A stretch of 64,000 nt of DNA, from the NCBI RefSeq assembly GCF_003709565.1, contig NZ_QNRC01000011.1:1-64000 (forward strand). The letters run 5' to 3'. Of this stretch, positions 841 through 21,771 are shown one piece after another. The stretch is from Paracoccus sigandri. Its GTDB lineage: Bacteria; Pseudomonadota; Alphaproteobacteria; Rhodobacterales; Rhodobacteraceae. The notes beneath the pieces are model-generated. The model was given only the letters and a program-made list of their open reading frames with translations. It was not told where the DNA came from and did no database searches. Each line of letters starts with the position of its first letter. Position 1 is the stretch's first letter. Both the position numbers and the translations under genes were made by a program.

Positions 841-2241
841 TCAGTGCCCTTCCAGATCGCCCGACAGGCCGGCGCCTCTGGGCGGGATGCCGTTGAACAG
901 GATGTTCAGCAGAAGCGCGGAAAACGTGCCGATCAGGATGCCGCTGCCGAAGGTGCGCCCGAAGATCTCGGGCAGCTGGCTATAGATGCCCGGCGCGACC
1001 ACCGGAATCATCGCCAGCGCCAGGCTGACCGCCACGATGTAGATGTTGCGCCGGTTGCCGACGAAATCCGCCCGCGCCAGGATCTTGACCCCGGTCGCCG
1101 AGACCATGCCGAACATCACGATCGCCGCGCCCCCGATCACATAGCTGGGGATCGAGGCGCTGATGAAGGCGACCTTCGGCAGGCATCCCAGCAGGATCAG
1201 GATGGCGCCGCCGGCCGCGACCGCCCACCGGCTGAGCACGCCGGTGATCTGCAGCAGCCCGACATTCTGCGCATAGGTGGTATAGGTGAAGGTGTTGAAG
1301 ATGCCGCCGATGATATTGCCGATCCCGTCGGTGCGCAGGCCGCGCGCCAGCCGTTCCTCGGTGATCTTCTGGCCGGCCATGTCGCCGACGGCCAGGAACT
1401 GGCCCACCGCCTCGATCATCATCACCACCATGACGGCGCAGAGCGCAAGCGTGCCCCACAGGTTGAAGATCGGCGTGCCGAAGGCGAAGGGCGTCACCAG
1501 GTTGACCCAGCCCGCATCGCCCAGGCCGGTGAAGTCCACGCGCCCGGCGGCGATCGAGATGACGAAGCCGAGCGTGATCCCGATCAGCACGCCCAGATTG
1601 GCCAGGAAGCCCTTGAAGATCCGCGTCACCAGCAGGATGGTCGTCAAAACGATGGCGGCGACGGCCAGGCCGAAGGGCTCGCCATAGGCCGGATTGGGGA
1701 CCGGCCCGTCGGGGGTGTTGATCGTCGGCGTCCCGCCCGCGGTCCAGTTCACGCCCACCCGCATCAGCGAAAGCCCGATCACCAGCATCACCGTCCCGGT
1801 CACGATCGCCGGGAAGAACCGCACCCATTTGCTGAAGAATTTCGCGGCGATCAGCGTGAAGACGCCCGAGGCGATGACGGCGCCGAAAACCCCGCGAATG
1901 CCCAGGTCCGGGTCGGTGCCGGTGGCGATGATCGCGGGCACGGCGGTGAAGCTGATCCCCATCATGATCGGCAGCCGCGCCCCGATGTTCCAGATGCCCA
2001 GGCACTGGATCATCGTCACGATGCCGCAGCAGAACAGGTCCGCGCTGACCAGCAGCGCGATCTGTTCCTTGGACAGTCCAAGCGCGTTTCCGACCAGAAG
2101 CGGCACGGCGACCGCGCCCGCATACATCACCAGCACATGCTGCAGACCCAGCGCGGCCAGCTTGGGCAGCGGCATCTTCTCCTCGATCGGGTCGTGTTTC
2201 TGGACCGGCTCGGCATATTCCATATCGGTGGCCACGCTCAT
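841..2241 (-). CDS. NCS2-family purine (xanthine/urate-type) permease
   Basis: A 466-residue integral membrane protein with about a dozen hydrophobic segments. It carries the NCS2 signature around AQNVGLLQITGVLSR and the family pattern GGAAIVMFGMV near the last third, as in XanP/UacT-type proton-driven nucleobase transporters of the inner membrane. The ATG at 2241 is chosen because GGGGAGGAGA lies just upstream; the longer frame back to 2337 adds a low-complexity charged leader without a ribosome site. It is transcribed away from the LysR gene at 2398, and the shared intergenic region holds an inverted repeat, suggesting control by that regulator. The exact substrate (xanthine, urate, uracil or another N-heterocycle) is not predictable, but a heterocycle carrier fits the catabolic genes that follow. 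Confidence 0.88.
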   Translation of the reverse strand: MSVATDMEYAEPVQKHDPIEEKMPLPKLAALGLQHVLVMYAGAVAVPLLVGNALGLSKEQIALLVSADLFCCGIVTMIQCLGIWNIGARLPIMMGISFTAVPAIIATGTDPDLGIRGVFGAVIASGVFTLIAAKFFSKWVRFFPAIVTGTVMLVIGLSLMRVGVNWTAGGTPTINTPDGPVPNPAYGEPFGLAVAAIVLTTILLVTRIFKGFLANLGVLIGITLGFVISIAAGRVDFTGLGDAGWVNLVTPFAFGTPIFNLWGTLALCAVMVVMMIEAVGQFLAVGDMAGQKITEERLARGLRTDGIGNIIGGIFNTFTYTTYAQNVGLLQITGVLSRWAVAAGGAILILLGCLPKVAFISASIPSYVIGGAAIVMFGMVSATGVKILARADFVGNRRNIYIVAVSLALAMIPVVAPGIYSQLPEIFGRTFGSGILIGTFSALLLNILFNGIPPRGAGLSGDLEGH

Positions 2242-2340
2242 CGGTTCTCCTCCCCTGCGGCTTCGACCGGAGCGGCGTTCTCCTCCCCCGCTTCCGTTTT
2301 CCGAACCATCTTGTGCGATTGACCATTCATTTAACAACTA

Positions 2341-2382
2341 GCATAATTTACTTTATACATTCGTTTATTTTATGAATTATGC
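2341..2382. promoter_or_regulatory. AT-rich divergent promoter with inverted repeat GCATAATT-N26-AATTATGC
   Basis: Between the permease start (2241) and the LysR start (2398) lies an unusually AT-rich stretch. GCATAATT at 2341-2348 and AATTATGC at 2375-2382 form a perfect inverted repeat with 26 bases between. Long-spaced inverted repeats in divergent LysR promoters are typical regulator-binding regions. The LysR ribosome site (CCCGGAGGA) abuts the right arm, which would fit autorepression. Confidence 0.5.
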
Positions 2383-2397
2383 CCGGAGGAACAGCGC

Positions 2398-3339
2398 ATG
2401 GAGCCGACCCTGAAGCAGCTTCGCGCCTTTGTCGCCGCCGCCGAAGCCGGACAGTTCACCCGCGCGGCCGAGCGGCTGGGACTGTCGCAATCGGCAGTCA
2501 GCACTCTTATCAACCAGTTGGAGCGAAACCTTTCGCTGCGGCTGTTCGACCGCCATACCCGGCTGCTGCGCCTGACCGAATCCGGGGCCGAGGTGCTGGC
2601 CGTCGCCCGGCGCGCGATCGGCGACATCGACAACATGATCGAAAACGCGCGAGAGCTGAACACGCTCAGCCGCGGCCGCGTGGCCATCGCCTCGGGGACG
2701 CTGCAGGCCGCCTTGCTGCTGCCGCGGCTGATTCGGGCCTTCAACCAGCGGCACGAGAATGTCGACGTGTCGCTGCATGACGTGTCCGAGCGGGTGATGA
2801 TCGACATGGTCAAAAGCGGCAGCGTGGATATCGGCCTTGGAACCCTGCCCGACAACGACAGCGAGATCGTCGGCACGCCGCTTGTCACCGATTCCTTCCT
2901 GGTGGTCATGCGCCCCGAACATCCCATCGCGCGGCGCCGGTCGCTGCGCTGGAAGGACCTCGAGGGTGAGACGCTGATCGGTCCGCAGCGCGGAAACCCG
3001 ATTCGCGACCGGTTCGAGGCCGAACTGGCGCGGGCGGGAATCACCCTGACCCTGCATCGATCCTTCCAGGACGTGTCCCTGCCGCTGACCATCATCGGCA
3101 TGGTCGATGCGGGCCTGGGCGTGGCGATCATGACCTCGACGGTCATCCCGCTGGCCCGGTCGATGGGGCTGGTGACGGTGATGCCGAACGAGCCGCAGAT
3201 CGAGCGCGACATCTCGCTGATCATCCGCAGCGACCGCTCGCTTTCGCCGACGGCCCGGCAGTTTCGCGACTTCCTGCATCGCTCGGTGCAGGAGGAGGCG
3301 CGGCGGCGATCGCGTGCGCCGCGGGCATCACATTGTTGA
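2398..3339 (+). CDS. LysR-type transcriptional regulator
   Basis: 313 residues, the normal LysR length. The N-terminal winged helix-turn-helix (about residues 5-65) contains AAERLGLSQSAVSTLINQLE and LRLFDRHTRLLRLTE; the C-terminal part is a periplasmic-binding-like effector domain. It is divergent from the NCS2 permease and is followed on the same strand by the amidohydrolase-UbiD-UbiX operon after 265 bases, so it probably controls one or both. It resembles the second LysR of the island (14792-15712) along its length, including the DRHTR and LSPxA segments, so the two look like paralogues. The effector is unknown. Confidence 0.9.
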   Translation: MEPTLKQLRAFVAAAEAGQFTRAAERLGLSQSAVSTLINQLERNLSLRLFDRHTRLLRLTESGAEVLAVARRAIGDIDNMIENARELNTLSRGRVAIASGTLQAALLLPRLIRAFNQRHENVDVSLHDVSERVMIDMVKSGSVDIGLGTLPDNDSEIVGTPLVTDSFLVVMRPEHPIARRRSLRWKDLEGETLIGPQRGNPIRDRFEAELARAGITLTLHRSFQDVSLPLTIIGMVDAGLGVAIMTSTVIPLARSMGLVTVMPNEPQIERDISLIIRSDRSLSPTARQFRDFLHRSVQEEARRRSRAPRASHC

Positions 3340-3343
3340 CAAT
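3332..3343 (-). promoter_or_regulatory. Candidate GntR operator ATTGTTGACAAT upstream of the amidohydrolase operon
   Basis: ATTGTTGACAAT is the exact reverse complement of the two ATTGTCAACAAT sites in front of the GntR gene near 13138-13185. It overlaps the stop codon of the LysR gene and lies about 260 bases before the first amidohydrolase. The palindrome ATTGT-N2-ACAAT has the size and symmetry of a FadR-subfamily GntR operator. The shared site links this operon to the molybdenum-hydroxylase operon; that the GntR protein binds it is inference. Confidence 0.5.
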
Positions 3344-3604
3344 CTGATTCGAAAGTGCTTTGCTTGACCTCGAGTAGAAGCAAAAGGCTGCATCTCACGC
3401 GGCGTTAATTGCTCATTTTTCCATTCGGAAGGTGAGTAATGCCGTGCAAAATGCATCCCTGAGACAATCCACCCGCATTCCAGCACCCGTCTTCGCCGCA
3501 TCGCGGCGGGCGCGTTGCCATGCCACCCCGTTCTCCGCCCGGAGACCGGGGGGATCGTCGCTGCCTGCTCGGAACCTCACGACACCAAACAGGAGGTCGA
3601 AACC

Positions 3605-4531
3605 GTGATCATAGATCTTAGCTGCTATCCAACGGACCTTGTTGATCTCGCCTGGCGCCATGACGGCGAGCCTTTCACCGGAGAGCGGCTGCTCAGGATG
3701 ATGGACGGCCCGTTCTACGTCAACGGCAAGCCCCGGCGCATCGACAAGGCGTTCATCCAGCCGCCGCAGGGCAATACCATCTATACCGATGGCGTCCTGG
3801 AAGCGGAAGGCAAGGCGGCGATCCGCCAATACATGGCCTATACCGAGAAGATGGTGACCGAGCATCCCGACCGCTTCCTGGGCTGCTTCGTCTACAACCC
3901 GCGCTATGGCACGCAGAACGGCGCCGAGGAAATCGCGCGCTATGCCAAAGAGTTCGATTTCAAGATGGTCCAGCTGCAGGCGAACATGCACGCCTATCGC
4001 CCGGACCGCGCGCTGGACTGGCTGCGCCCGGCGATGCGCGTCTGTGCCGACCTGGGGCTGATGGTCAAGGTCCATACCGGCGACGGGCCCTATTCGATCC
4101 CGACCGAGTTCTACCCGATCATCCGCGAATTCCCCGAGGTGAACTTCATCCTGGCGCATTTCGGGGTGCAGACCGGCGGCGTCTATGTGTTCGAGCCGTT
4201 CCAGATGGCGATGGATGCGCCCAACGTCTATGCCGAATCCGGCTGGTGCCTGCAGTCGCGGATCGTGGAATTCGCCAAGGAACTGCCCAAGCACAAGATC
4301 CTGTTCGGCAGCGACACGCCCCCGAACGAGCCCGGCATGTGGCTGAACCTGCTGGAGGTTCTGTGCCACGAGCCGCCGCAGGGCCTGAACCTCGATGAGG
4401 ACACCCTCGAAGACTATCTCGGCAACAACGTTGCCCGGATGATCGGCCTCGACCCCACCCCGCCCCCGGCGAGCGTGGCCGAAGCCGAAGCCTATCTGAA
4501 GGCCAAGGGCGTCCAGCTTCAGCCCGCCTGA
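3605..4531 (+). CDS. Amidohydrolase-2 family protein A, lacking the HxH metal motif
   Basis: 308 residues of the ACMSD-like amidohydrolase-2 superfamily, closely similar to its downstream neighbour. The start is GTG at 3605, preceded by AGGAGGT at a good distance and matching the neighbour's N terminus. The family's N-terminal metal-binding HxH is replaced: where the neighbour reads DTHLHPT, this protein reads DLSCYPT (Ser6 and Tyr8). Later motifs are kept: HTGDGP (His157), AHFG (His185) and GSDTPPN (Asp237). Loss of HxH suggests an altered metal site, a non-catalytic partner of a heteromer, or a changed reaction. It is followed 32 bases on by paralogue B, then UbiD and UbiX. The substrate is unknown; hydrolysis, decarboxylation and hydration are all known in this superfamily. 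Confidence 0.85.
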   Translation: MIIDLSCYPTDLVDLAWRHDGEPFTGERLLRMMDGPFYVNGKPRRIDKAFIQPPQGNTIYTDGVLEAEGKAAIRQYMAYTEKMVTEHPDRFLGCFVYNPRYGTQNGAEEIARYAKEFDFKMVQLQANMHAYRPDRALDWLRPAMRVCADLGLMVKVHTGDGPYSIPTEFYPIIREFPEVNFILAHFGVQTGGVYVFEPFQMAMDAPNVYAESGWCLQSRIVEFAKELPKHKILFGSDTPPNEPGMWLNLLEVLCHEPPQGLNLDEDTLEDYLGNNVARMIGLDPTPPPASVAEAEAYLKAKGVQLQPA

Positions 4532-4563: not shown

Positions 4564-5511
4564 ATGATCATCGACACGCACCTCCATCCCACGAATCTCG
4601 TGGACGAGGCATGGCGCCACACCGGCACGCCCTTTACCGGCGAACGGATGCTGAAGCTGATGGACGGCCCCTACATGATCAACGGCAAGCCGCGCCGGAT
4701 CGACATGGGCTTCATCCAGCCGCCGCCGGGCAATACCGGCTATCGCGACGGCAACCGCATGGGGCGCGACGGCATCCGCGACTACATGTCCTATATCGTG
4801 GAACTGTGCGAGAAATACCCCGACCGGTTCATCGGCAACTTCGCCTACAACCCCCGCTGGGGCCCGGAAAACGGCGCGGCCGAAATCGAATTCCATCACA
4901 AGGAATACGGTTTCAAGATGATCAAGCTGCATGCGAACATGCACGGCTATCGTCCCGACCGCGCGCTGGACTGGCTGCGCCCGGCGATGAAGATGTGCGC
5001 CAAGTACAACATCGTCGTGCTGATCCACACCGGCGACGGCCCCTATACCATCCCGACGATGTTCTATCCGATCATCCGCGAATTCCCGATGGTCAACTTC
5101 ATCATCGGCCATTTCGGGATCCAGACCGGGGGGAACTATTCCTTCGAATCCTTCTGGATGGCGAATGACACGCCCAACGTCTATTGCGAATCCGGCTGGT
5201 GCTTCCAGTCGCGGATCGTGGAATTCGCCAAGCAGCTGGAAAAGCACAAGATCGTCTTCGGCACGGATTCGCCGCCCAACGATCCGGGGATGTGGCTGCG
5301 CGAACTGGAGGTGCTGTGCCACGAGCCGCCGCACGGGATGAACCTGTCCGAGGACGACCTGGAAGGCTATCTGGGCAACAACATCGCCAGGCTGGTCGGG
5401 CTGACCCCGACCCCGCCCCCGGCGAACCTGGAGGACGCCAAGGCGCGCCTGACCGATACCTACGCCAATGTGGACCGCGCGACCGGCAAGAGCCTGCTGG
5501 TGCCCGCCTGA
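4564..5511 (+). CDS. Amidohydrolase-2 family protein B, complete metal site
   Basis: 315 residues, a TIM-barrel metal-dependent enzyme. The N terminus DTHLHPT gives His6 and His8; HTGDGP (His155), GHFG (His183) and GTDSPPN (Asp235) complete the expected metal-binding and catalytic set. ATG at 4564 follows CAGGAGACGAGC. It shares most of its length with protein A, so the pair arose by tandem duplication. The superfamily includes 2-amino-3-carboxymuconate semialdehyde decarboxylase, gamma-resorcylate decarboxylase and 4-oxalomesaconate hydratase. The next gene is a UbiD decarboxylase, so a carboxylated ring or ring-cleavage product is a reasonable guess. The precise reaction cannot be assigned from sequence. 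Confidence 0.88.
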   Translation: MIIDTHLHPTNLVDEAWRHTGTPFTGERMLKLMDGPYMINGKPRRIDMGFIQPPPGNTGYRDGNRMGRDGIRDYMSYIVELCEKYPDRFIGNFAYNPRWGPENGAAEIEFHHKEYGFKMIKLHANMHGYRPDRALDWLRPAMKMCAKYNIVVLIHTGDGPYTIPTMFYPIIREFPMVNFIIGHFGIQTGGNYSFESFWMANDTPNVYCESGWCFQSRIVEFAKQLEKHKIVFGTDSPPNDPGMWLRELEVLCHEPPHGMNLSEDDLEGYLGNNIARLVGLTPTPPPANLEDAKARLTDTYANVDRATGKSLLVPA

Positions 5512-5577: not shown

Positions 5578-6960
5578 ATGCCTCACACCGAATTCCACCG
5601 CCAGGACGTGCGCCGCTTCCTTGCCGATTACCGCGCCGCCCATCCCGAAGACATTCTGACTCTGACGGATCCGGTCTCGGACGACCAGGACGCCACCGCG
5701 CTGGTCTTCGCCCTTGCCGCCAAAGGCCGCGCGCCGCTGATCGAGATGACCTCGGTCGGGGGCTTGGGCGCGGATGTGATCACCAACATCTTCGGCTGCC
5801 GCAGGCGCATCGCCCGGATGTTCGGCACCGACGTGGCTGGCCTGCACGCCGCCTATCAGGCCGCCGCCCGCCGCGCGAGTCCGCCGGAAATCGTCGCCGA
5901 CGCCCCGATCCTGGAAGACGTCATCACCCAGAACATCGACCTGAACGGCCTGCCGATGCTGAAACATTTCGCCACCGACCGGGCGAAATACATCACCAGC
6001 GGTATCATCATCGCCGAACATCCCGACACCGGGGCGGGCAATCTCAGCTATCACCGCTCGATGATCAATTCGCCCGACACACTGGCCACCAGCCTGCATT
6101 CGCGCGGCCATCTGTGGCGGCTTCTGAACATGGCCAGGGAGGCCGGCCGGCCGATGCCCGTCGCCATGGTGATCGGCGCGCATCCGCTGTTCATGATCGC
6201 CGCCTCAGCCCGGCTGGCTTTCGGCGAGGACGAGCGCAGCATCGCCGGCGGCCTGTTGGGCGAGCCGTTGCAGGTGGTGCGGACGCCGAAATACGGGCTG
6301 CGCGTGCCCGCTTACGCCGAGATCGTGCTGGAAGGCGTGATCGAGCCGGAGGCCCATGTCGCCGAGGGTCCCTTCGGCGAGTTCACCGGCTATTCCTCGG
6401 ACCGTTCGACCAACAACCTGTTCCGGGTCGAGACCGTCCTGCGCCGCCGCCAGCCGATCCTGGTCAGCGTCATCGGCGGCAATTCCGCCGAGCACCTGAA
6501 CCTGGGCCGCGTCCCGCGCGAGGCCGAGATGGCCGAGAAGATCAGGCAGCGTTTCCCCAGCGTGACCGAGCTGCACTATCCCGCCTCGGGCACGCATTTC
6601 CACGCCTATGTCGCGCTGGACCAGCAGCGCTTCGGCGAGGCGCGGCAGGTGCTGATGGGGATCCTGGGCTGGGACCCTTATCTGAAAACCGTGATCGCGG
6701 TGGACAGCGACGTGGACGTGACCCGCGACGAAGAGGTCCTGTGGGCGCTGTCGACGCATTTCCAGCCGCATCGCGACGTGATGATCATCGATTCGCTGCC
6801 CGGCAACGCGCTGGACCCCTCGGCCTCGGGGATCGGCACCACCTCGCGCATGGGGCTGGACGCGACCCGCGGGCCGGACTTCCACGGCACTCGCGCGCTG
6901 ATCGACGAGGGCGCGAAGGCGCGCGCCGCGGCGCTGCTGCGGGCGGCGGGCCTGTCATGA
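5578..6960 (+). CDS. UbiD-family prenylated-FMN-dependent decarboxylase
   Basis: 460 residues, in the range of the family (about 450-500). The catalytic triad of UbiD enzymes is visible: Arg160 in NLSYHR, and Glu263 and Glu268 in EGPFGEFTGY. These enzymes use prenylated FMN, made by UbiX, for reversible decarboxylation of aromatic or unsaturated acids in the cytoplasm. GGAG precedes the ATG at 5578. Its stop overlaps the start of ubiX (ATGA), so the two are translationally coupled. The operon (amidohydrolases A and B, UbiD, UbiX) and the lack of ubiquinone genes nearby argue for a catabolic enzyme rather than ubiquinone synthesis. Two-gene UbiD/UbiX modules act, for example, on furan-dicarboxylate, but this substrate is unknown. 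Confidence 0.92.
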   Translation: MPHTEFHRQDVRRFLADYRAAHPEDILTLTDPVSDDQDATALVFALAAKGRAPLIEMTSVGGLGADVITNIFGCRRRIARMFGTDVAGLHAAYQAAARRASPPEIVADAPILEDVITQNIDLNGLPMLKHFATDRAKYITSGIIIAEHPDTGAGNLSYHRSMINSPDTLATSLHSRGHLWRLLNMAREAGRPMPVAMVIGAHPLFMIAASARLAFGEDERSIAGGLLGEPLQVVRTPKYGLRVPAYAEIVLEGVIEPEAHVAEGPFGEFTGYSSDRSTNNLFRVETVLRRRQPILVSVIGGNSAEHLNLGRVPREAEMAEKIRQRFPSVTELHYPASGTHFHAYVALDQQRFGEARQVLMGILGWDPYLKTVIAVDSDVDVTRDEEVLWALSTHFQPHRDVMIIDSLPGNALDPSASGIGTTSRMGLDATRGPDFHGTRALIDEGAKARAAALLRAAGLS

Positions 6961-7562
6961 GCGCGGGCGCGGCAGCCGCCCCGGACCGGCCGCGCATCGT
7001 GGTGGGCATTTCCGGGGCCTCGGGCGCGGTCTATGGCAAGCGCGTGCTGGAAGTGCTGCGCGACATGGGGGTCGAAACCCATCTGGTCATGTCGCAGGCC
7101 GCGCGGATCACCATCGCGGCCGAGGCCGATTTCACGCCCGCCGATCTGGAAGGGCTGGCCTCGGTCACGCATTCCAACAAGGATATCGGCGCCTCCTGCG
7201 CCAGCGGATCGTTCCGCACGCTGGGGATGATCGTGGCGCCCTGTTCGGTGAAGTCGCTGTCCGAGATCGCCTGCGGCATGACCACCGGCCTGCTGACCCG
7301 CGCCGCCGATGTCACGCTGAAGGAACGGCGGCGGCTGGTGCTGATGCTGCGCGAGACGCCGTTCCACCTGGGCCATATCCGGTCGATGGCGGCGGTGACC
7401 GAGATGGGGGCGATCGTCTATCCGCCGGTCCCGGCCTTCTATGCCAAACCCGCCGGCCTTGCCGAGATGGTGGATCATACCGTGGGCCGGGTTCTCGACC
7501 TGTTCGATCTGGATACCGGCCTGTCGCATCGCTGGACGGGGCTGCGCCATCGCGACGACTGA
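6957..7562 (+). CDS. UbiX-family flavin prenyltransferase
   Basis: 201 residues. The N-terminal IVVGISGASGAVYGKRVLEVL is the flavin-binding signature of the family; CSVKSLSEIACGMTTGLLTRAADV and the RETPFHLGHIRSM segment carry the conserved active-site residues. The enzyme joins dimethylallyl phosphate to FMN to make the cofactor of the UbiD protein encoded just upstream, with which its ATG overlaps by four bases. It is slightly longer at the N terminus than typical UbiX (about 190). It ends an operon: a strong hairpin follows at 7588. A dedicated cofactor enzyme within the operon is usual for catabolic UbiD modules. Confidence 0.93.
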   Translation: MSAGAAAAPDRPRIVVGISGASGAVYGKRVLEVLRDMGVETHLVMSQAARITIAAEADFTPADLEGLASVTHSNKDIGASCASGSFRTLGMIVAPCSVKSLSEIACGMTTGLLTRAADVTLKERRRLVLMLRETPFHLGHIRSMAAVTEMGAIVYPPVPAFYAKPAGLAEMVDHTVGRVLDLFDLDTGLSHRWTGLRHRDD

Positions 7563-7656: not shown

Positions 7657-8679
7657 TCAGCCCTCGACCTCCGACAGGCAGTTGCGCAGCTCGGCTTCCA
7701 GCCCGGCCTTGTCCAGTTCGCGGCCGATGAAGACGATGCGGCTTTCGCGCCGCTCGTCCGCGCGCCAGGGATGGTCGGGGCGCAGGTCGATCAGTTCATG
7801 CACGGCTTGCAGCACGTGGAACCGCTCGTCCCCTGCCATCCAGAGGATGCCCTTGGTGCGGAAGGCGGTGGTGCCGTTCTCCGACAGGTGCCGCTTCAGG
7901 AAACCCAGCAGCCGGTCGTGGTTGAAGGGCCGGTCGAAGGTGAACGAGACCGAGCCGACGCTGGGGTCGTGATGGCTGTGGTGGTGATGGCCGTCCAGGT
8001 CCAGCAGCCTGGCGCGCTCGGCGACATAAGAGGGCGTGAAGCCGCTGATCCCCAGGATCGCGCCCAGGTCCACCACGCCGTATTGCGAGCGCAGGATGCC
8101 CGCCGTCTGGTTCAGCTGGCGCAGATCGCCTTCCAGCGCGTCCAGTTCCGCCGGCCCGGCCAGGTCGGTCTTGTTGATGATGATCCGGTCGGCCGAGACG
8201 ATCTGGTCCACGGCCTGGTTCTCGCGCCCGTCCAGCTGCTTGTCGTTCAGGTGCTGGCCGATATGCTTGGCGTCCACCAGCGTCACGATGGCGTCAAGCT
8301 GGACCGCCTCCATCACCTCGGGGTCGATGAAGAAGCTGGTCGCGACCGGGGTCGGGTCGGCCAGGCCGCTGGTCTCGACGATCACATGGTCGAACTTGTC
8401 CTTCTGCGCCAGCAGCTTCTTCATCACCTGGATCAGGTCGTTGCGCACATCCACGAAACAGCAGATGCAGCCGTTCTTCATCTGGAAGATCTCCTCGTCC
8501 GAGGCCAGGACCAGGTCGGAATCCACGTCGATCTCGCCGAATTCGTTCTCGATCACCGCGATGCGATGGCCGTGACGCTCGGTCAGGATATGGTTCAGAA
8601 GCGTGGTCTTGCCCGCCCCCAGGAAGCCGGTCAGGATCGTGACCGGCACCTTTTCCTTCTGGACCTCATATACCTGCAT
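7657..8679 (-). CDS. CobW/G3E-family P-loop GTPase, putative metallochaperone
   Basis: 340 residues. The G3E motifs are clear: Walker A GFLGAGKTT near residue 18, the metal-binding GCICC near residue 71, ETSGLADP, and NKTD. A His-rich loop (GHHHHSHHD) joins the GTPase to the C-terminal CobW_C domain. Proteins of this family use GTP to insert metals (Zn, Co, Ni) into client enzymes. The start overlaps the end of the molybdenum-hydroxylase large subunit by 14 bases, so it is the last gene of that operon. A client role for the hydroxylase or the metal-dependent amidohydrolases is inference; neither a Zur site nor cobalamin genes are nearby. Confidence 0.88.
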   Translation of the reverse strand: MQVYEVQKEKVPVTILTGFLGAGKTTLLNHILTERHGHRIAVIENEFGEIDVDSDLVLASDEEIFQMKNGCICCFVDVRNDLIQVMKKLLAQKDKFDHVIVETSGLADPTPVATSFFIDPEVMEAVQLDAIVTLVDAKHIGQHLNDKQLDGRENQAVDQIVSADRIIINKTDLAGPAELDALEGDLRQLNQTAGILRSQYGVVDLGAILGISGFTPSYVAERARLLDLDGHHHHSHHDPSVGSVSFTFDRPFNHDRLLGFLKRHLSENGTTAFRTKGILWMAGDERFHVLQAVHELIDLRPDHPWRADERRESRIVFIGRELDKAGLEAELRNCLSEVEG

Positions 8680-13127: not shown

Positions 13128-13137
13128 GGCTTTCAGG

Positions 13138-13185
13138 ATTGTCAACAATTCGACTTTGAGGCTAAGCTGGGACATTGTCAACAAT
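13138..13185. promoter_or_regulatory. Two ATTGTCAACAAT operators in the GntR/XdhC divergent promoter
   Basis: ATTGTCAACAAT occurs at 13138-13149 and again at 13174-13185, identical over 12 bases and over further flanking positions (ATTGTCAACAATTC). Start-to-start spacing is 36 bases, about three and a half helical turns. Both lie between the GntR start (13127) and the XdhC start (13264). A third copy, inverted, is at 3332-3343. Symmetry ATTGT-N2-ACAAT and position point to the adjacent GntR protein as the binder. Confidence 0.65.
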
Positions 13186-13263
13186 TCTGATGCGACCATC
13201 TTCAACCACGCTCTTCACGGCTAAGGCAGTCGAGCGGACCTCTGACAACCACATGGAGGCCCC

Positions 13264-14232: not shown

Positions 14233-14783
14233 GATGCCTGGGCGCCCTTCTGGCCGCCGGCCGCTCGACGCGCTTCGGGGCCGGGGACAAGCTGCTGGCG
14301 CCCTGGCGGGGGCGGCCGCTGGTCGGCTGGGCGGCAGAGGCCCTGGCGGCATCGGGCTGCGACGAGGTGATCGCGGTCATATCCGCGCCCGAGGTCGGGG
14401 CGGTCCTGCCCGATGGGTGCACGCTGCACCGGATCGCGCCGGGCCTGCCGATGTCGGCCTCGTTCAAGCTTGCGCTGCGCATCGCGCGGGACAGGCAGGC
14501 GGACGGGTTGCTGCTGTGCCTGGGCGACATGCCCAATATCGATGCCGGGCTGCTGCGCCGGCTGCGGTCCCTGCCGGGCAGCGGCGCCTGCCTTGCGGCC
14601 GGCCGGCGGATGCCCCCCGCTTATATCGCCGCCGGGGATTTCGACCGGGCGCTGGATGTCGAGGATGGCGACCACGGGGCGCGGGCGATCATCGCGGCCC
14701 TGCCCGAGACGCGGCTGATCCGCATCGACGAGGACGCCGCCCATGACGTCGACCGGCCCTCCGACCTGACCCGCCCGGCCTGA
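14229..14783 (+). CDS. MocA-like molybdenum cofactor nucleotidyltransferase
   Basis: 184 residues of the MobA-like NTP-transferase fold. The nucleotide-binding LLAAGRSTRFGAGDKLLAPW is at residues 6-25 and the metal-binding LCLGDMPNI near residue 97. Such enzymes attach CMP (MocA) or GMP (MobA) to molybdopterin; MocA is the usual partner of xanthine-dehydrogenase-type enzymes, and the coupling to xdhC supports cytidylyl transfer. It is translationally coupled to xdhC. It converges on the LysR gene at 14792 with only eight bases between. Confidence 0.85.
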   Translation: MRCLGALLAAGRSTRFGAGDKLLAPWRGRPLVGWAAEALAASGCDEVIAVISAPEVGAVLPDGCTLHRIAPGLPMSASFKLALRIARDRQADGLLLCLGDMPNIDAGLLRRLRSLPGSGACLAAGRRMPPAYIAAGDFDRALDVEDGDHGARAIIAALPETRLIRIDEDAAHDVDRPSDLTRPA

Positions 14784-14791: not shown

Positions 14792-15712
14792 TCAGGCGTC
14801 GGTTTCCAGATGCGCGGCCCGGATGGCGGCGGCATTGGTCAGGATCAGTTCCCGCAACCGCTGCGCTGCGGGCGACAGGCTGCGCTGGCGGTGCTGCAGG
14901 ATCGAGATTTCCCGCGTGACGCGCGGCTCGACCAGTTCGATGGTCCGCACATGGACGGCCGGGGCCAGCTGGCGCGAATTCTCGGGCAGCACGGAAATGC
15001 CCATCCCCGCCGAGATCATGCTGATCGCCGTGGTCGAGAACCGCACCTCGTAGCTGGGACGGAATGCCGGGGCGACGCGGATCATGGTCCGTTCGACGAT
15101 CTCGCGCAGCGGGTTCTCGGCGGCCAGCACGATCAGCCTTTCCTTCGCCAGGTCCTGCCAGCGGACCTGCTTCAGCCGCGCGAAAGGATGATCCGCGCGG
15201 CAGGTGACCATCAGGCGGTCGCAGATGACCGGCGTCGCCTTGATCTCGGGGTCGTCGTCGACAAGCGTGCCGATGGCGATGTCGACCTGGCCGCCCTTCA
15301 GCGCCATGCGGATCCGTTCCTCGGCCATGTCGTGAAGCTGGACCGCGACGCCCGGATGCTGTTCCAGAAAACGCGCAAGCAGCGGCGGAACGATGGTCGC
15401 CGCCAGGACGATCGAGGCGGCGACGGCCACCCGGCCATGCTTCAGCGCGGCGCTGTCGCGGACGCCGCGCGTCGCCAGTTCCAGGTCCTCCAGGACCTTG
15501 CGGGCCTGGGGCAGGAATTCCTGCCCGATCGCGGTCAGGCTGACCATCCGCGTGTGCCGGTCGAACAGCGACACGCCCATCTCGGCCTCCAGCTCGCGGA
15601 TCAGGATGCTGACGGCGGGCTGGGTCAGGCCAAGGCTGTTGGCGGCCAGATTGAACCGCCCCAGGTCGGCGACGGCGATGAAGGCGCGGATCTGGCGCAG
15701 CGTGACGTTCAT
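14792..15712 (-). CDS. LysR-type transcriptional regulator (paralogue of the one at 2398)
   Basis: 306 residues. The DNA-binding part includes LAANSLGLTQPAVSILIRELE and VSLFDRHTRMVSLT; the effector domain follows. It lies 54 bases downstream of the ABC-transporter ATPase on the same strand, so it may be the last gene of the transporter operon. It resembles the LysR at 2398 throughout (for example GRVAVAASI against GRVAIASGT, and LSPAAQRLRELI against LSPTARQFRDFL), indicating duplication within the island. Its target could be the transporter operon or the hydroxylase genes; the inverted repeat at 21835 is one candidate site. Confidence 0.88.
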   Translation of the reverse strand: MNVTLRQIRAFIAVADLGRFNLAANSLGLTQPAVSILIRELEAEMGVSLFDRHTRMVSLTAIGQEFLPQARKVLEDLELATRGVRDSAALKHGRVAVAASIVLAATIVPPLLARFLEQHPGVAVQLHDMAEERIRMALKGGQVDIAIGTLVDDDPEIKATPVICDRLMVTCRADHPFARLKQVRWQDLAKERLIVLAAENPLREIVERTMIRVAPAFRPSYEVRFSTTAISMISAGMGISVLPENSRQLAPAVHVRTIELVEPRVTREISILQHRQRSLSPAAQRLRELILTNAAAIRAAHLETDA

Positions 15713-15766: not shown

Positions 15767-17302
15767 CTAGGCCTCTTGCGCCACATGCCCTGCCTTCTGC
15801 CCGGCCATCAGCAGGCCGACTTCCTCCAGCCTGCTGCGATCGGCCGGCACTTCCCCCAGGATCTGGCCGTGGAACATGACGAGGATCCGGTCGCAGATCG
15901 CAAAAAGCTCCTCCAGCTCGGTGGAAATCAGCAGGATCGCCCGGCCGGCATCGCGCTGTTTCAGCATCTCTTGCAGGATGAATTCGATCGCCCCGATGTC
16001 AATCCCCCGCGTCAACTGGCTGACCAGGATGAAATCGGGATCGCGCGCCAGTTCGCGGGCGACCACCAGCTTCTGCTGGTTGCCGCCCGAAAGGTTGGCG
16101 ATCCGTTCTTCTTCATCCGGGGTCTTGATGCGGAAGCGCGCGATCAGGTCGCGCGTATGGGCGGCGATCCGACGCCGCTGCAACATGCCCCGCGCCGCGA
16201 AGGGCGGCTGGTCATAGCGTTCCAGGATGGCGTTCTCGGCCAGGGACAGCGGCATCAGGATGCCCATCTTGTGGCGGTCCTCGGGGATATGGGCGAAGGC
16301 GCGGGCGTTGATCTCGGCCGGGGACAGCCCGGTGATGTCGCGGCCGTTCAGCGCCAGGCGGCCGCTGTCGATGGGCAGCAGCCCGGCGATGGCCAGGGCC
16401 AGCTCGGTCTGGCCGTTGCCCGAGACGCCGGCGACGCCGACGATCTCGCCCCGCCTGACCTGCAACCCGATGTCGCGCAGCGCGGGCAGGCCAAGGTCGT
16501 TGCGGCAGGACAGGCCCTCGACCGACAGGACCACATCGCCCGGATCGGCCGGGGCGCGCGGCAGTTCCATCAGCACGTCGCGGCCCACCATCAGCCGCGC
16601 CAGTTCGCGCGGATCGGTATCGGCGACGCGCGTGGTATGGACGACGCGGCAGTCGCGCATGACGCTGATCCGGTCGCTGACCCGCATCACCTCGTCCAGC
16701 TTGTGCGAGATGAAGATCACCGTCTTGCCGTCCTTCACCAGCCCGCGCATCAGGTCCAGCAGCCGGTCGGTTTCCTGCGGCGTCAGCACCGCCGTCGGCT
16801 CGTCCAGGATCAGCAGGTCGGTGCCGTGATACAGCACCTTCAGGATCTCGACCCGCTGCTGTTCGCCGACCGACAGATCCTCGATGACGGCATCGGGGCG
16901 GACGCCCAGGCCGTAGCGATCGCTGAGTTCGCGGATGCGGGCATGGACCTTTTCCATGTCGTGGATCAGGCGCAGGGGCGATCCCTGGCCCAGCACATAA
17001 TTCTCGGCCACGGTCAGGTTCGGAACCAGCATGAAATGCTGATGCACCATGCCGATCCGGTGCCGGATCGCCTCGCGCGGGGAGCCGATGTTCAGCGGCC
17101 TGCCCTTGTAGATGATCTGCCCGGAATTGGGGCTGAGAATGCCGCAGAGGATGCTCATCAGCACGCTTTTGCCGGCACCGTTCTCGCCCAGAAGCGAATG
17201 GATCTCGCCCTCCTCGACCTCCAGCGTGACGCCGGCGCTGACGATGATCTCGCCGAAGGATTTGTGGATGTTGTCCATTCGCAGGAAGGGACGCTCGCTC
17301 AT
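15767..17302 (-). CDS. BMP-type (nucleoside-like) ABC importer, ATP-binding protein
   Basis: 511 residues with two fused ABC domains, as in RbsA/MglA and the ATPases of BmpA/YufN nucleoside systems. The first domain has Walker A GENGAGKS, signature LSVGEQQRVEI and Walker B LLILDEPTAVL. The second has the degenerate GVSGNGQTEL in place of Walker A, which is normal for this class, plus signature LSGGNQQK. The usual D-E-P-T of the second Walker B reads SQLTRG here (VSQLTRGID), so only the first site is likely to hydrolyse ATP fully. ATG at 17302 follows GAGAGG and lies four bases past the permease stop. Confidence 0.9.
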   Translation of the reverse strand: MSERPFLRMDNIHKSFGEIIVSAGVTLEVEEGEIHSLLGENGAGKSVLMSILCGILSPNSGQIIYKGRPLNIGSPREAIRHRIGMVHQHFMLVPNLTVAENYVLGQGSPLRLIHDMEKVHARIRELSDRYGLGVRPDAVIEDLSVGEQQRVEILKVLYHGTDLLILDEPTAVLTPQETDRLLDLMRGLVKDGKTVIFISHKLDEVMRVSDRISVMRDCRVVHTTRVADTDPRELARLMVGRDVLMELPRAPADPGDVVLSVEGLSCRNDLGLPALRDIGLQVRRGEIVGVAGVSGNGQTELALAIAGLLPIDSGRLALNGRDITGLSPAEINARAFAHIPEDRHKMGILMPLSLAENAILERYDQPPFAARGMLQRRRIAAHTRDLIARFRIKTPDEEERIANLSGGNQQKLVVARELARDPDFILVSQLTRGIDIGAIEFILQEMLKQRDAGRAILLISTELEELFAICDRILVMFHGQILGEVPADRSRLEEVGLLMAGQKAGHVAQEA

Positions 17303-17306
17303 GTCG

Positions 17307-18239
17307 TTACCTCTCGTCATAGGGCGTGCCCAGTTTCCGCGGGGCGGCGCTTTTGCCGCCGACGACGATCAGGGCGACGATGGTCATCAGATAGGGCAGC
17401 GCCTGGAACGCCTGATAGGGGATGTTCAGCATGGGCTGGGCCTGAAGCTGCAATTGCAGCGCGTAGAACAGCCCGAACAGCAGCGACACGAAGAACGCGC
17501 CGACCGGCGACCAGCGCGCGAAGACCACCACCGCCAGCGCGATGAAGCCGCGCCCCGAGGTGATGCCCTCGACGAACTGGTTGGAATGGCCAAGCGTCAG
17601 GAAGGCCCCGCCCAGCCCCGCCAGCCCGGTCCCGATCAGCACCGCGCCATAGCGATAGGCCGCCACGCTGCGTCCCGCCACGTCCACCGCCTTGGGATGG
17701 TCGCCCACCGCCCGCAGCGTCAGCCCGAACGAGCTGCGGTAGAGCAGGATCACCGCCAGCACCGTCACCAGCACGGTGCTGTAGACGATCAGGTTCTGCC
17801 TGAACAGCGCCTCGCCGAAGAAGGGCAGGTCGCTGAGCCAGGGGATGCGGACCGGGCGGGCGATATCGACCCCGCGCCCGGTCGAGACGTAATAGGTGCG
17901 GAACAGAAAGGCGGTCAGGCCCAGGCCCAGCAGGTTGATCGCCGCGCCGACCACGATCTGGTTGGCCTTCACGGTGATGGTGAAGAAGGCGAAGATCAGC
18001 CCGAAAGCCATCCCCGCCGCGATGCCGGCGGCAAGGCCCAGGGGAATGCTGCCGGTGGCGAAACTCGCGGCGAAACCGCAGAAGGCGCCCATCAGCATCG
18101 TGCCTTCCAGCCCGATGTTCAGAACGCCCGCGCGTTCGGAAATGACCTCGCCGATCGAGGCGAAGATCAAGGGCGTCGCCAGGCGCCAGGCGGCGCCGAG
18201 AAGGGTGGCGAGGAAGCCGAGGGTGAGGATATCCAGCAT
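17307..18239 (-). CDS. BMP-type ABC importer, permease subunit 2
   Basis: 310 residues, about nine hydrophobic segments. It starts with MLDILTLGFLATLLGAAWRLATPLIFASIGEVISERAGVLNIGLEG-like sequence; the GxxxERxGVxNxGLEG pattern is typical of the BPD_transp_2 permeases of nucleoside importers. It forms the inner-membrane channel with the permease at 18250. The two permease genes are ten bases apart and the ATPase follows closely. Family members move guanosine, uridine or other nucleoside-like molecules; the substrate here is unproven. Confidence 0.9.
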   Translation of the reverse strand: MLDILTLGFLATLLGAAWRLATPLIFASIGEVISERAGVLNIGLEGTMLMGAFCGFAASFATGSIPLGLAAGIAAGMAFGLIFAFFTITVKANQIVVGAAINLLGLGLTAFLFRTYYVSTGRGVDIARPVRIPWLSDLPFFGEALFRQNLIVYSTVLVTVLAVILLYRSSFGLTLRAVGDHPKAVDVAGRSVAAYRYGAVLIGTGLAGLGGAFLTLGHSNQFVEGITSGRGFIALAVVVFARWSPVGAFFVSLLFGLFYALQLQLQAQPMLNIPYQAFQALPYLMTIVALIVVGGKSAAPRKLGTPYDER

Positions 18240-18249
18240 GATCTGCTCC

Positions 18250-19350
18250 TTAGCTGCGCCGGCGCGGCCAGATGCGGATGGCGGCGAAGGCCACGACCGA
18301 CAGGATCACGATCCCCTGGATGATCGAGACCAGCACCTGCGGCACCTGCGAGGTGATCTGCATCAGTTCCGAGCCCGACCGCAGCACGGCGAACAGCCCG
18401 CCCGACAGGATCGCCCCCAGGGGATTGTTCCCGGCCAGCAGCGCCACCGCGATCCCCTCGAACCCGTAGCCCGGCGAGATGTTCTGATAGAGCCTGTGGG
18501 TGACGCCCGCGACCTCGAAAGCCCCGGCCAGCCCCGCCATGCCGCCGCTGATGCACATTGCGGCCATCATGTTGCGCCCGGCATTCATCCCGGCATAGCG
18601 GGCGGCGTGCGGGTTGATGCCCACGACACGGACGGCATAGCCCGCGCTGGAGCGATAGAGGAACACATAGAGTACCAGGGCCAGCGCCACCGCGACCAGG
18701 ATGCCGATATGCAGCCGCGTGCCCGCGATGAGATCGGGCACCCAGGCCTCGCGGAACAGGCGGGCCGATTGCGGATAGGCGGCGCGCGCGTCCCTCATGG
18801 GGCCTGTGACCAGCCAGCTGGTGCCGATCAGCGCGATATAGTTCAGCATGATCGTGGTGACGATCTCGCTGGCCTGGAAGCGGACCTTCAGAAAGCCCGC
18901 GATCCCGCCCCAGATCGCCCCGCCAAGCGCCCCCGCGACCAGCACGGCGGGGACGTAGAGCCAGGGCGACAGGCCCTCGAAGCTGATGCCGATCAGCGTC
19001 GCGCTGACGGCACCCGCGTAAAGCTGTCCCTCGGCGCCGATGTTCCACATGTTGCAGCGGAAGGCGACGCACAGCCCGGCGCCGATCAGGATCAGCGGCA
19101 CCGCCTTCAGCAGGATCTCGGTCACCGACCTGAAATCCTGAAAGACGCCGAGGATCATCACGTTGACGACGTCGGCCCCGTCGAACCCGTTCAGCGCCAG
19201 AAGCACCGCGCCGCAGGCCAGCGCGATGGCGACGGCGGCGGCTGGAAGGGCCACCGCGACGGCGGCGCGGGCGACGGCCCTGCCGACAAGGCGCAGGATC
19301 GGGACGGCGGCAGCCCCCCGCCCGTCCCGTTCGATCTGTGTCATGGTCAT
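18250..19350 (-). CDS. BMP-type ABC importer, permease subunit 1
   Basis: 366 residues, BPD_transp_2 family. NMWNIGAEGQLYAGAV around residue 105 is the hallmark of the larger permease of these systems, and further membrane segments follow to the C terminus. ATG at 19350 is preferred, as GGGGGAAAGG lies just before it; the frame could start at 19371 or 19344. Lies between the substrate-binding protein gene (19405) and permease 2, all on the minus strand. Together with the ATPase it forms a complete importer. Confidence 0.9.
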   Translation of the reverse strand: MTMTQIERDGRGAAAVPILRLVGRAVARAAVAVALPAAAVAIALACGAVLLALNGFDGADVVNVMILGVFQDFRSVTEILLKAVPLILIGAGLCVAFRCNMWNIGAEGQLYAGAVSATLIGISFEGLSPWLYVPAVLVAGALGGAIWGGIAGFLKVRFQASEIVTTIMLNYIALIGTSWLVTGPMRDARAAYPQSARLFREAWVPDLIAGTRLHIGILVAVALALVLYVFLYRSSAGYAVRVVGINPHAARYAGMNAGRNMMAAMCISGGMAGLAGAFEVAGVTHRLYQNISPGYGFEGIAVALLAGNNPLGAILSGGLFAVLRSGSELMQITSQVPQVLVSIIQGIVILSVVAFAAIRIWPRRRS

Positions 19351-19404
19351 GAAACCTTTCCCCCGTTCCACCGCGGTCCCGGCGGGACCGCGACGGGGTT
19401 CCCC

Positions 19405-20394
19405 TCAGTTGGAATGGGTCTGGATGTTTCCAGCGGCGATCTGGGCGGCGACTTCCGCCACCTCGGCCTTGATCGCGTCGGGCACGGCGACCGGCCCATC
19501 CTCGCGGAAGGTGAACTGCATGACCTTTTCGTCCTTCAGCCCGAAGACCACGTTCGCCTCGGGCGGCGCGCCGTCCCTGATGCCGCGCACCACCTCGACC
19601 ACGCCCTGCGCGTAATCGGCCACATAGAGGCCGAGGATATTGTCCGGCGCCACCGGGGTGAAATCGCTGAAGATGCTGAAGGTGCGCACATCGGCCCCGG
19701 ATTCGGCTATCCCCTGATAGCCGCCGACCGTCGCGCCCGAGGCATTCGGCAGCACGAAATCCGCCCCCTGCGCGATCATGCTGAGCGCCGCTTCCTTGGC
19801 GGCGGTGGTGTCGGTGAAATTGCCGATATAGGCCTCGCTGATGGGGAAATCGGGATCGACGCTGCGCACGCCGTTTTTGAAACCCTCGAACGCCTGCTGG
19901 ATCGGCGGGATCTCCATGCCGCCGACAAGCCCGGCCTTCTTGCCCATCTTCGCCGCGATCACGCCCATCAGGTAGAAGGGCTGGCTGGTATCGGTGTGCA
20001 GCCCGATCACCCTGCCTTCGTGGATGTCGCTGGACGAGATCAGGAACCAGGTCTCGGGGTAGTCCTCGGCCACGCTCAGCGCGGCGTCCTGGAACTCGAA
20101 GCCATGGCCCAGGATGACCTGATAGCCCTGGCTGGCATAGTCGTAGAACGCCTTCTCGAACGAGGCCGGGTTCTGCTGAAGCTCGACATAGCTGATCGTC
20201 GCACCCAGCTGTTCCTGAACCCCTTTCAGGGCGTTGTATCCGATCCGGTTCCAGCCCTCTTCCGAGACGCTGCCGGGCACCAGAAGCCCCATCTTCAGAT
20301 CCTCGGCCCAAGCCTTCCCGGCCGGCAACAGGCCCGCCAGGACACCAGCCATGCCGCCCATCAGCACGGCACGCCGAAACACACGCGATTCCAT
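19405..20394 (-). CDS. BMP-family substrate-binding protein of the ABC importer
   Basis: 329 residues. The N terminus MESRVFRRAVLMGGMAGV begins a signal peptide cleaved near KAWA-ED, so the protein is periplasmic; there is no lipobox. The mature part is a BMP/PnrA-type binding protein (LKMGLLVPGSVSEEGWN, then YQVILGHGFEFQDAA and GLVGGMEIP). The family binds purine nucleosides and related compounds, while some members bind other ligands. GGGGAGGAGA precedes the ATG. It follows the deaminase-like gene by 66 bases and leads into the permease genes. Confidence 0.9.
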   Translation of the reverse strand: MESRVFRRAVLMGGMAGVLAGLLPAGKAWAEDLKMGLLVPGSVSEEGWNRIGYNALKGVQEQLGATISYVELQQNPASFEKAFYDYASQGYQVILGHGFEFQDAALSVAEDYPETWFLISSSDIHEGRVIGLHTDTSQPFYLMGVIAAKMGKKAGLVGGMEIPPIQQAFEGFKNGVRSVDPDFPISEAYIGNFTDTTAAKEAALSMIAQGADFVLPNASGATVGGYQGIAESGADVRTFSIFSDFTPVAPDNILGLYVADYAQGVVEVVRGIRDGAPPEANVVFGLKDEKVMQFTFREDGPVAVPDAIKAEVAEVAAQIAAGNIQTHSN

Positions 20395-20460
20395 CGTTGT
20401 TCTCCTCCCCTACGTGTTTTTTGTTCTCCCGCCGCCAACCGCCCGAAGGCCAGCCGGCGG

Positions 20461-21771
20461 CTAGACGCGCTCGGCCACCCGGAGCGTTTCCGGCTGGGCC
20501 AGCGCGACCGCGCTTTCCGAGACCAGCCGCCCGCGGGACAGGACCTGCATGTGGTCCGCACCGCCGGCGACCAGCCTGTCGGTATCGGCGCAATCGGTCA
20601 GCACAAGGTCCGCCCATGCGCCGGCGCGGATGCCGTAATCCTCGCCCAGCCCCATCAGGCGGGCGGGGGCGGTGGTGATCAGCCGATGCGCGGCGGACAG
20701 CTCGTCCGCCATCAGATGCCCGGCCAGCAGGGTCCAGCGGGCGATCTCCAGCAGATCTCCCGAGCCGGTCGGCACGAAGGGATCCTGGATATTGTCCGAG
20801 GCCGTCGCGATCACGACACCGCCGCGCATCAGCTCGGCCACGCGGGTCAGCCCGCGCGGCGGCAGGGTCTGGCTGTCGCGGCCCTGCAGGTAAAGATTCG
20901 CGGCCGGCAGCGTCACCGCCCCGACATCGAGGTCGATCATCCGCTGCATGATCCGCTCGAATCCGGCACGCGGCATGGCGCTGAGCACCGAGACATGGCT
21001 GAACACCGTGCGCCCCTGCATCCCGTAGCGCTCGACACAGTCAAGCGCCGTGTCGAAATGCAGGGAGGCGGGGTCCAGATGTTCGTCCAGATGCAGGTCG
21101 ACCGGCTTGCCCGCCCGCGCGGCGGCGGCGAACAGCATGTCGATATAGCGGTCGGGGTCCTCGGCAACCGCCGGCGTGCCGCCGACGACATCGCCCAGGG
21201 CCACGGCCGCGTCGATATTCGCCCCAAGCCAGTCGTAATCCTGCCCCGGATGCGCCATCATGAAGGCCACCAGCTGCAGGCTGATGCGGTCGCGCCATTC
21301 GTCCCGCAGGCGCGCCAGCGCCTCGATGCCGTGGAAACGGGCATCCTTGTCGACATTGACATGGCTGCGGATGGCGGTCGTGCCACGTGACAGGCAGCGC
21401 TGCATGGTCCGGCTGGCCCGCCGGGTAATGTCCTCGGGGCCTGCGGTGCGGGCATATTTCGCGAAGGCCTCGCGCGCGCCCTGCAAGGTGCCCGACGGGT
21501 TCGGCGTGAAGGGCAGCACCCCGGTCTTGTCCAGATGCTGGTGCATGTCGACGAAACCGGGCGAGATCAGCATGGAGGACACATCGACCCGGTCGGTCTC
21601 GGGGCCGGCCTGCAGGTCAGGGCCGACGGAGTCGATGCGGCCCCGCGCTCCGATCAGGATGTCGGCCCGCTCGGCCGTGCCGCCGTCCCGGATGACCAGG
21701 CCGCCCGACAGCAGCAATGCCCGCCGCCCGTTTGCGATATCGAAGGATAGCTTCCGGCGGTCCGCACACAT
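20461..21771 (-). CDS. Cytosine-deaminase-like amidohydrolase
   Basis: 436 residues of the amidohydrolase superfamily, CodA-like branch. Expected metal/catalytic elements are seen in order: DMHQHLDKT near residue 76, RSHVNVD, HLDEHLD (the H-x-D-E metal and proton-shuttle motif), FSHVSVLSAMP, and SDNIQDPF holding the final aspartate. Related enzymes deaminate cytosine or isocytosine or hydrolyse cyclic amides/ureides. It is the first gene of the transporter operon, so the importer probably brings in its substrate. The short AT-rich promoter upstream carries the inverted repeat at 21835. The exact substrate cannot be inferred. Confidence 0.85.
   Translation of the reverse strand: MCADRRKLSFDIANGRRALLLSGGLVIRDGGTAERADILIGARGRIDSVGPDLQAGPETDRVDVSSMLISPGFVDMHQHLDKTGVLPFTPNPSGTLQGAREAFAKYARTAGPEDITRRASRTMQRCLSRGTTAIRSHVNVDKDARFHGIEALARLRDEWRDRISLQLVAFMMAHPGQDYDWLGANIDAAVALGDVVGGTPAVAEDPDRYIDMLFAAAARAGKPVDLHLDEHLDPASLHFDTALDCVERYGMQGRTVFSHVSVLSAMPRAGFERIMQRMIDLDVGAVTLPAANLYLQGRDSQTLPPRGLTRVAELMRGGVVIATASDNIQDPFVPTGSGDLLEIARWTLLAGHLMADELSAAHRLITTAPARLMGLGEDYGIRAGAWADLVLTDCADTDRLVAGGADHMQVLSRGRLVSESAVALAQPETLRVAERV

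Follow-up and report, generated by a model that had tools for sequence, protein, structure and literature searches.

What compound is imported and dismantled by a locus that combines a UbiD-type decarboxylase and its UbiX partner, two amidohydrolase-2 paralogues (AH2a and AH2b), a molybdenum (Mo) hydroxylase and nucleobase-type transporters? The locus occupies positions 841..21771 of the window, by which we mean the whole 64,000-nucleotide stretch analysed here (Paracoccus sigandri, NZ_QNRC01000011.1, positions 1 to 64,000; contig 13 of the 4.9 Mb genome). With moderate confidence, we propose that its genes take up pterins (folate-derived 2-amino-4-oxopteridines) and degrade them to xanthine.

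Composition and recurrence of the gene cluster

All the genes that a first-pass annotation of this DNA had named in the locus were found there with matching family scores (Pfam, NCBIfam), the MocA-like protein lying below its NCBIfam cut-off. On the left, an NCS2 permease gene (minus strand) is followed by a plus-strand block encoding LysR, AH2a, AH2b, UbiD and UbiX. In the middle, a minus-strand block carries CobW and the large, FeS and FAD subunits of the Mo hydroxylase, plus an FCD-GntR regulator, and precedes the plus-strand pair XdhC-MocA; on the right lie a second LysR gene, a four-gene BMP-type importer and a cytosine-deaminase-like amidohydrolase, all on the minus strand. Neighbouring genes overlap by 4 bases (UbiD/UbiX, FeS/FAD, XdhC/MocA) or 14 bases (Mo large subunit/CobW, importer ATPase/permease), an operon-like arrangement.

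AH2b matched 91 plasmid records at 80-95% identity (182 places in total, two per record among the matches listed), from Sinorhizobium, Ensifer, Paracoccus, Caballeronia, Shinella, Cupriavidus, Burkholderia, Ponticoccus, Ochrobactrum and Paraburkholderia. Similar companion genes stand beside the AH2 pair in five annotated plasmid records and, by tblastn, in four unannotated ones. A species-level genome scan gave 235 relatives, of which the best 80 were retained, each with flanks of at most 10 kb; all counts over 80 loci refer to L014-L093 only (L001-L004 and L007 were excluded), and each stretch was assigned to its best-matching query. AH2b was present in 80/80 loci, AH2a in 79/80 and UbiD in 79/80, with all three together in 78/80. 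The sole locus without AH2a (L059) begins at a contig edge, and the sole one without UbiD (L041) ends about 160 bases past AH2b; in three Rhodoplanes loci UbiD lies upstream and is just 41-42% identical. CobW was present in 73 loci, UbiX in 65 and NCS2 in 51. The large subunit of the Mo hydroxylase was of the window's type in 47 loci and of another type in 23 (either in 70, both in 0). This second type (L093:5087-7483 and 22 other loci, beta/gamma) has a different domain order and replaces the three-subunit enzyme; it resembles isoquinoline oxidoreductase.

The first-pass annotation had held that the blocks belong together, and had named their independent occurrence as one of two refuting outcomes; the neighbourhood check went against such independence. 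The gene set recurs in alpha-, beta- and gammaproteobacteria, so it is not a chance meeting, and by gene neighbourhood the blocks are best read as one functional unit. The AH2 pair is rare in the family to which the window belongs (2/295 genomes), so that a search confined to near relatives would show little. The distribution is patchy, since neither the AH2 pair nor a window-type deaminase occurs in a genome of the same genus (G023), and the module has perhaps moved horizontally.

Two further genes were seen near the module. A class II aldolase (PRK06486, over cut-off) lies at L027:414-1211 and in 11 other loci (Shinella, Ensifer, Mesorhizobium and similar); as a guess, it might trim pterin side chains. 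An arylmalonate decarboxylase/EutA-like protein, below both cut-offs, lies at L065:14288-15037 and in L046, L052, L057 and L085 (Burkholderia, Paraburkholderia, Marinobacterium).

The deaminase and the substrate class

The beta- and gammaproteobacterial loci carry an extra amidohydrolase of the PRK12393 family (NCBIfam). Nine of the 32 such proteins were tested, and all scored 662-788 bits (cut-off 543) while staying under the cut-off of the 8-oxoguanine deaminase model. For the two proteins run against the PDB, 2PAJ was the best solved match: 545.6 bits (next 229.7) for the Comamonas protein, which aligned nearly end to end, and 455.9 bits (next 298) for the Pseudomonas protein. 2PAJ is Sgx9339a, an isoxanthopterin/pterin-6-carboxylate deaminase; Hall and colleagues reportedly showed in 2010 that it deaminates isoxanthopterin and pterin-6-carboxylate. 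PRK12393 is presumably linked to a described group of amidohydrolases. These act on pterin-6-carboxylate as well as isoxanthopterin (PMC5270733).

Because the deaminase of related clusters best matches 2PAJ, pterins are likely to be the substrate class of the cluster, a well-supported reading. The hydroxy-aromatic carboxylate first suggested, or a furoate, did not gain support as substrate. Nor does the imported compound have to be a carboxylate; a carboxylate more likely arises within the pathway.

Within the flanks of the 80 loci, which are limited in length, PRK12393 was found in 32, the window-type deaminase in 9, both in 0 and neither in 39. All 32 best-match PRK12393 loci are at >=46% identity; a stricter requirement, 50% identity to a single member, left 13, and a separate clustering, run over a set that included five of the plasmid-record loci, also gave 32, not the same ones. 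At the level of whole genomes, among 36 module genomes picked from the 80 loci for spread (window type called at E <= 1e-110, PRK12393 over its own cut-off), 12 had the window type, 23 had PRK12393, none had both and one had neither. We therefore regard the window's enzyme as the probable counterpart of the PRK12393 deaminase, replacing it in alphaproteobacteria. The window's CodA-like protein belongs to another branch than the beta/gamma deaminase, whose best solved relative is 2PAJ. The window enzyme stays under the cytosine-deaminase cut-offs (241.5/403, NF005759; 223.7/438, NF005748; 139.9/483, NF006685), and HQH 77-79, H227, E230, H259 and D326 are identical in 13 aligned relatives; H77, H79, H227, E230, H259 and D326 are the residues of the deaminase motif.

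Each deaminase also follows the AH2 pair across genomes. In the window's family, the window type (at most 5 candidates scored per genome) occurs in exactly the 2/295 genomes with the AH2 pair. In the family of the Ralstonia member G310, PRK12393 occurs in 37/37 genomes with the pair vs 8/163 without (200 genomes; the draws for the two genes were taken as one, their handles agreeing among the entries listed). In 34/37 it lies on the same contig as the pair within about 17 kb, and in 3/37 on another contig.

The amidohydrolase pair, UbiD and a route to xanthine

AH2a and AH2b are 66% identical, and the first-pass annotation had treated them as plain paralogues. This does not hold, as AH2a has lost half of its metal motif: its window sequence is D-L-S-C-Y-P, against the metal-binding D-T-H-L-H-P of AH2b, the HxH of the first strand being the metal-binding motif. 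AH2b keeps DTHLHP in 80/80 loci. In AH2a the HxH is gone from 76/76 loci checked, all reading D-x-S-C-Y-P (of the 80, L051, L053 and L060 fell under the 70% threshold and L059 starts at the contig edge). H6S and H8Y are fixed, with H155, H183 and D235 retained. Taken alone, AH2a thus lacks the HxH of an active metal enzyme, and we propose that it is a non-metal partner subunit of metal-bearing AH2b.

AH2b itself carries PF04909 and a TIM-barrel fold. Structural alignments give it the same fold as ACMSD, dihydroxybenzoate decarboxylases, IDCase, LigJ and LigW, at about 12-22% identity, and its metal motif matches that of the ACMSD family. Unlike those enzymes, AH2b is constantly paired with a metal-less paralogue. 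No one ACMSD-family enzyme is closest to it in the VIA-align list, where rows 1-25 lie within about 2 Z.

The closest solved relative of UbiD is the furan-2,5-dicarboxylate decarboxylase HmfF (6h6x, 252.8 bits; next family AnInD, 149). HmfF residues R152, E259, H296 and R304 are conserved in 79/79 UbiDs (the window plus 78 loci, HmfF not counted); H296 and R304 have a substrate-binding role. R311, in place of HmfF G301, is likewise present in 79/79 and is family-specific. The catalytic Arg/Glu residues are in place, and the maker of prenylated flavin mononucleotide (prFMN), UbiX, adjoins UbiD in the window and is present in 65/80 loci. Nearness to a five-membered-ring decarboxylase would suit decarboxylation at purine C8. 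As to CobW, we can only guess that it supplies metal.

The window's Mo large subunit scores under the cut-offs for xanthine dehydrogenase (XDH; 665.6/780, NF043082; 335.3/849.5, TIGR02965). A separate XDH (1291 bits, over cut-off) and an OHCU decarboxylase belonging to the urate route are encoded on contig 54 of the genome. Since that XDH scores 1291 and the window subunit 335, the window's enzyme probably acts on something other than xanthine, and the cell could use xanthine. An insect pteridine review has XDH hydroxylating pterins at positions 6 and 7 (PMC11121863), a precedent for the Mo step.

From the observed gene content, synteny, deaminase swap, motif loss, residues and fold we infer substrates, order and the assignment of enzymes to steps. 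Our model suggests that a pterin would be imported by the NCS2 and BMP/ABC systems. Its deamination to a lumazine would fall to the CodA-like enzyme in the window and to the PRK12393 one in beta/gamma relatives. With XdhC and MocA as its maturation factors, the Mo hydroxylase would then hydroxylate C6/C7 to give 6,7-dihydroxylumazine (tetraoxypteridine). AH2a-AH2b would open the cyclic oxamide and reclose it as an imidazole, giving xanthine-8-carboxylate, and UbiD, with UbiX-made prFMN, would release xanthine, which would enter the separate XDH/urate route. Oxamide hydrolysis and re-closure could be feasible for an amidohydrolase. This pterin route agrees with the rough order given in the first-pass annotation, which ran from import through deamination, hydroxylation and ring or side-chain hydrolysis to decarboxylation.

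A similar route is said to have been worked out in Alcaligenes faecalis by McNutt and co-workers in the 1960s: isoxanthopterin is reportedly deaminated to 7-hydroxylumazine and oxidised to tetraoxypteridine, which is isomerised to xanthine-8-carboxylate (EC 5.5.1.3) and then yields xanthine. Deamination, hydroxylation, contraction and decarboxylation match the window's four conserved enzyme types. As far as is known, that work was enzymology without genes, whereas here there are genes without enzymology, and it is we who infer the link. EC 5.5.1.3 is tetrahydroxypteridine cycloisomerase, which converts 6,7-dihydroxylumazine to xanthine-8-carboxylate. A 2007 survey has it among orphan activities, with gene recovery ranked 'difficult' (PMC1940265). 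One ion in a metabolomics table is assigned both to tetrahydroxypteridine and to xanthine-8-carboxylate, as it should be for isomers (PMC5941619).

That the AH2 pair is the pteridine-contracting cycloisomerase and UbiD, jointly, the xanthine-8-carboxylate decarboxylase is a tentative proposal. With similar caution, we suggest that AH2a/AH2b may be an obligate active/metal-less pair contracting pteridine to purine, its genes being those for EC 5.5.1.3, and that UbiD may be the first prFMN decarboxylase known on a purine (xanthine-8-carboxylate). The contraction, if true, would chemically reverse the ring expansion of GTP cyclohydrolase. Among the matches listed in the open-licence literature we found no paper linking UbiD or the AH2 pair to pterin breakdown (absence from the wider literature is not implied), no gene set for later pterin breakdown, no paper linking UbiD with aminoimidazole and xanthine, and none on a UbiD/UbiX/amidohydrolase cluster of this kind.

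Pterins could also be degraded in another order, with UbiD acting early to strip pterin-6-carboxylate or lumazine-6-carboxylate of its 6-carboxylate, and AH2b opening the pyrazine hydrolytically to open-chain products, without a return to xanthine. The amidohydrolases presumably linked to PRK12393 do act on pterin-6-carboxylate besides isoxanthopterin, and UbiD near AH2b in 79/80 loci fits either order, but a six-ring pyrazine carboxylate seems a poorer fit for a UbiD nearest to the five-ring HmfF and AnInD, and the 1960s pathway reportedly finishes at xanthine. We consider this order unlikely. Quite improbable is a clostridial-type opening of xanthine, in which the AH2 pair would give a ureido-imidazole carboxylate, UbiD would act on an amino-imidazole carboxylate and the CodA-like enzyme would deaminate aminoimidazole. 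An NCS2 permease of the xanthine subfamily, a five-ring type of UbiD and a BMP/nucleoside kind of importer would all suit it, and it was our initial hypothesis; it was demoted because the companion deaminase matched 2PAJ, and it leaves a Mo hydroxylase distinct from XDH without a role and the PRK12393/2PAJ-type deaminase of 23/36 genomes unexplained. The first-pass reading, in which the compound degraded is a carboxylate of furan, pyridine or hydroxy-aromatic type, draws on the closeness of UbiD to HmfF with H296 and R304 kept, yet it is very improbable against either deaminase in 35/36 module genomes, nucleobase-type importers in many loci and, as that annotation had in part noted, the lack of any CoA ligase, thioesterase, ring-cleaving oxygenase or furoyl-CoA enzyme of the Hmf pathway among the 19 genes scanned, this search covering no other part of the genome.

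Several points weigh against the pterin-to-xanthine route. No paper joining the code 2PAJ with isoxanthopterin was found in the open-licence literature. The window deaminase is not itself PRK12393, having no match at 1e-90, and the module genome G307 has neither deaminase (1/36). UbiX was not found in 15/80 loci, nor a Mo hydroxylase within the flanks of 10/80 (7/65 among loci >20 kb); some loci hold just part of the set, Paracoccus sp. TOH for example carrying the AH2 pair, UbiD, UbiX, CobW, NCS2 and the deaminase but no Mo hydroxylase within 15 kb. For the association of the AH2 pair with PRK12393 (200 genomes), the Fisher p of 7.5e-33 is an overstatement and no true probability, because the sample is made up of related genomes, a few of them very small. 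The presence of XDH in 36/36 module genomes, weighed as a sign that xanthine is the end product, was set aside as uninformative, because 57/61 family genomes have XDH. HudA, a UbiD that decarboxylates pyrrole-2-carboxylate, is inactive on imidazole-2-carboxylate, a simple analogue of the proposed substrate, and shows little activity on imidazole-4-carboxylate (PMC7976604). The pterin deaminases Arad3529 and Variovorax F1 PDA carry out the kind of reaction proposed for the window deaminase; the nearest paper found deals with folate/pterin use by related soil proteobacteria, gives deaminopteroate as the last product identified in Variovorax folate deamination and, in the parts consulted, describes no AH2/UbiD cluster (PMC9513972).

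Annotated features and what the pathway would mean

The table collects the 19 genes of the locus. The NCS2 start is the methionine of MSVATDM, chosen by us, the open reading frame itself opening at 2337; for AH2a the probable start is a GTG at 3605, preceded by a good ribosome site, and not 3515, where its frame opens. The importer proteins stay under the NCBIfam cut-offs for a vitamin B6-type importer (binding protein 92.4 vs 400; the others 236.6/465, 164.7/400 and 459.3/670). Long opposite-strand frames, some >900 aa, were taken as shadow frames, and those scanned had no Pfam match.

Table. Genes of the locus in window coordinates, with the family evidence for each
Feature	Position	Strand	Evidence
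NCS2 nucleobase:cation symporter, proposed pterin/lumazine or xanthine uptake	841..2241	-	PF00860 331 bits; TIGR03173 (pbuX subfamily) 506.6, cut-off 414
LysR regulator 1	2398..3339	+	PF00126, PF03466
AH2a, amidohydrolase-2 paralogue, HxH replaced by S-C-Y	3605..4531	+	PF04909
AH2b, amidohydrolase-2 with intact metal motif	4564..5511	+	PF04909
UbiD prFMN decarboxylase, HmfF-like	5578..6960	+	PF01977 etc.; HmfF 6h6x best PDB match
UbiX flavin prenyltransferase, 4-base overlap with UbiD	6957..7562	+	NF004685 261 bits, cut-off 188
CobW/COG0523 GTPase, proposed metal chaperone	7657..8679	-	PF02492, PF07683
Mo hydroxylase large subunit	8666..10972	-	PF02738, PF20256, PF01315
Mo hydroxylase 2Fe-2S subunit (start MKKTLL, our choice)	10973..11464	-	PF01799, PF00111
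Mo hydroxylase FAD subunit	11461..12324	-	PF00941, PF03450
GntR/FCD regulator	12420..13205	-	PF00392, PF07729
XdhC-type Mo cofactor sulfuration/insertion factor	13264..14232	+	PF13478, PF02625
MocA-like cytidylyltransferase	14229..14783	+	TIGR03310 53.6 bits, below cut-off 186
LysR regulator 2	14792..15712	-	NCBIfam LysR matches
ABC importer ATPase, two nucleotide-binding domains	15767..17320	-	PF00005, 2 stretches
ABC importer permease 1	17307..18239	-	PF02653
ABC importer permease 2	18250..19371	-	PF02653
BMP-type substrate-binding protein	19405..20394	-	PF02608 138 bits
Cytosine-deaminase-like amidohydrolase, proposed pterin deaminase	20461..21771	-	PF07969/PF01979

Directly after the cluster, at 22429-25476, lie a sensor histidine kinase (FixL-like C-terminal part) and a FixJ-like response regulator, both below the cut-offs of those models and probably unrelated to it. 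Further along the window are a DUF1007 protein beside a NicO-type nickel/cobalt transporter (27714-29824), a GcvT-like folate-binding aminomethyltransferase (46628-47812) and Calvin-cycle genes (53423-59927: RuBisCO large subunit, NCBIfam 789 bits; class II fructose-bisphosphate aldolase; class 1 fructose-bisphosphatase). The one paper found by S. meliloti locus tags does no more than list SMb20132 as a probable dehydrogenase, with a value of -1.44, in a table for a regulator.

Living cells everywhere supply pterins, by way of folate, biopterin and pigments. If the proposed pathway is true, genes would be assigned to the orphan enzyme EC 5.5.1.3, ring contraction would be added to the ACMSD family and UbiD chemistry would extend to purines. 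It would also explain an unnamed cluster carried by many S. meliloti pSymB plasmids and by relatives in Burkholderia, Ralstonia, Cupriavidus, Pseudomonas and Paracoccus.

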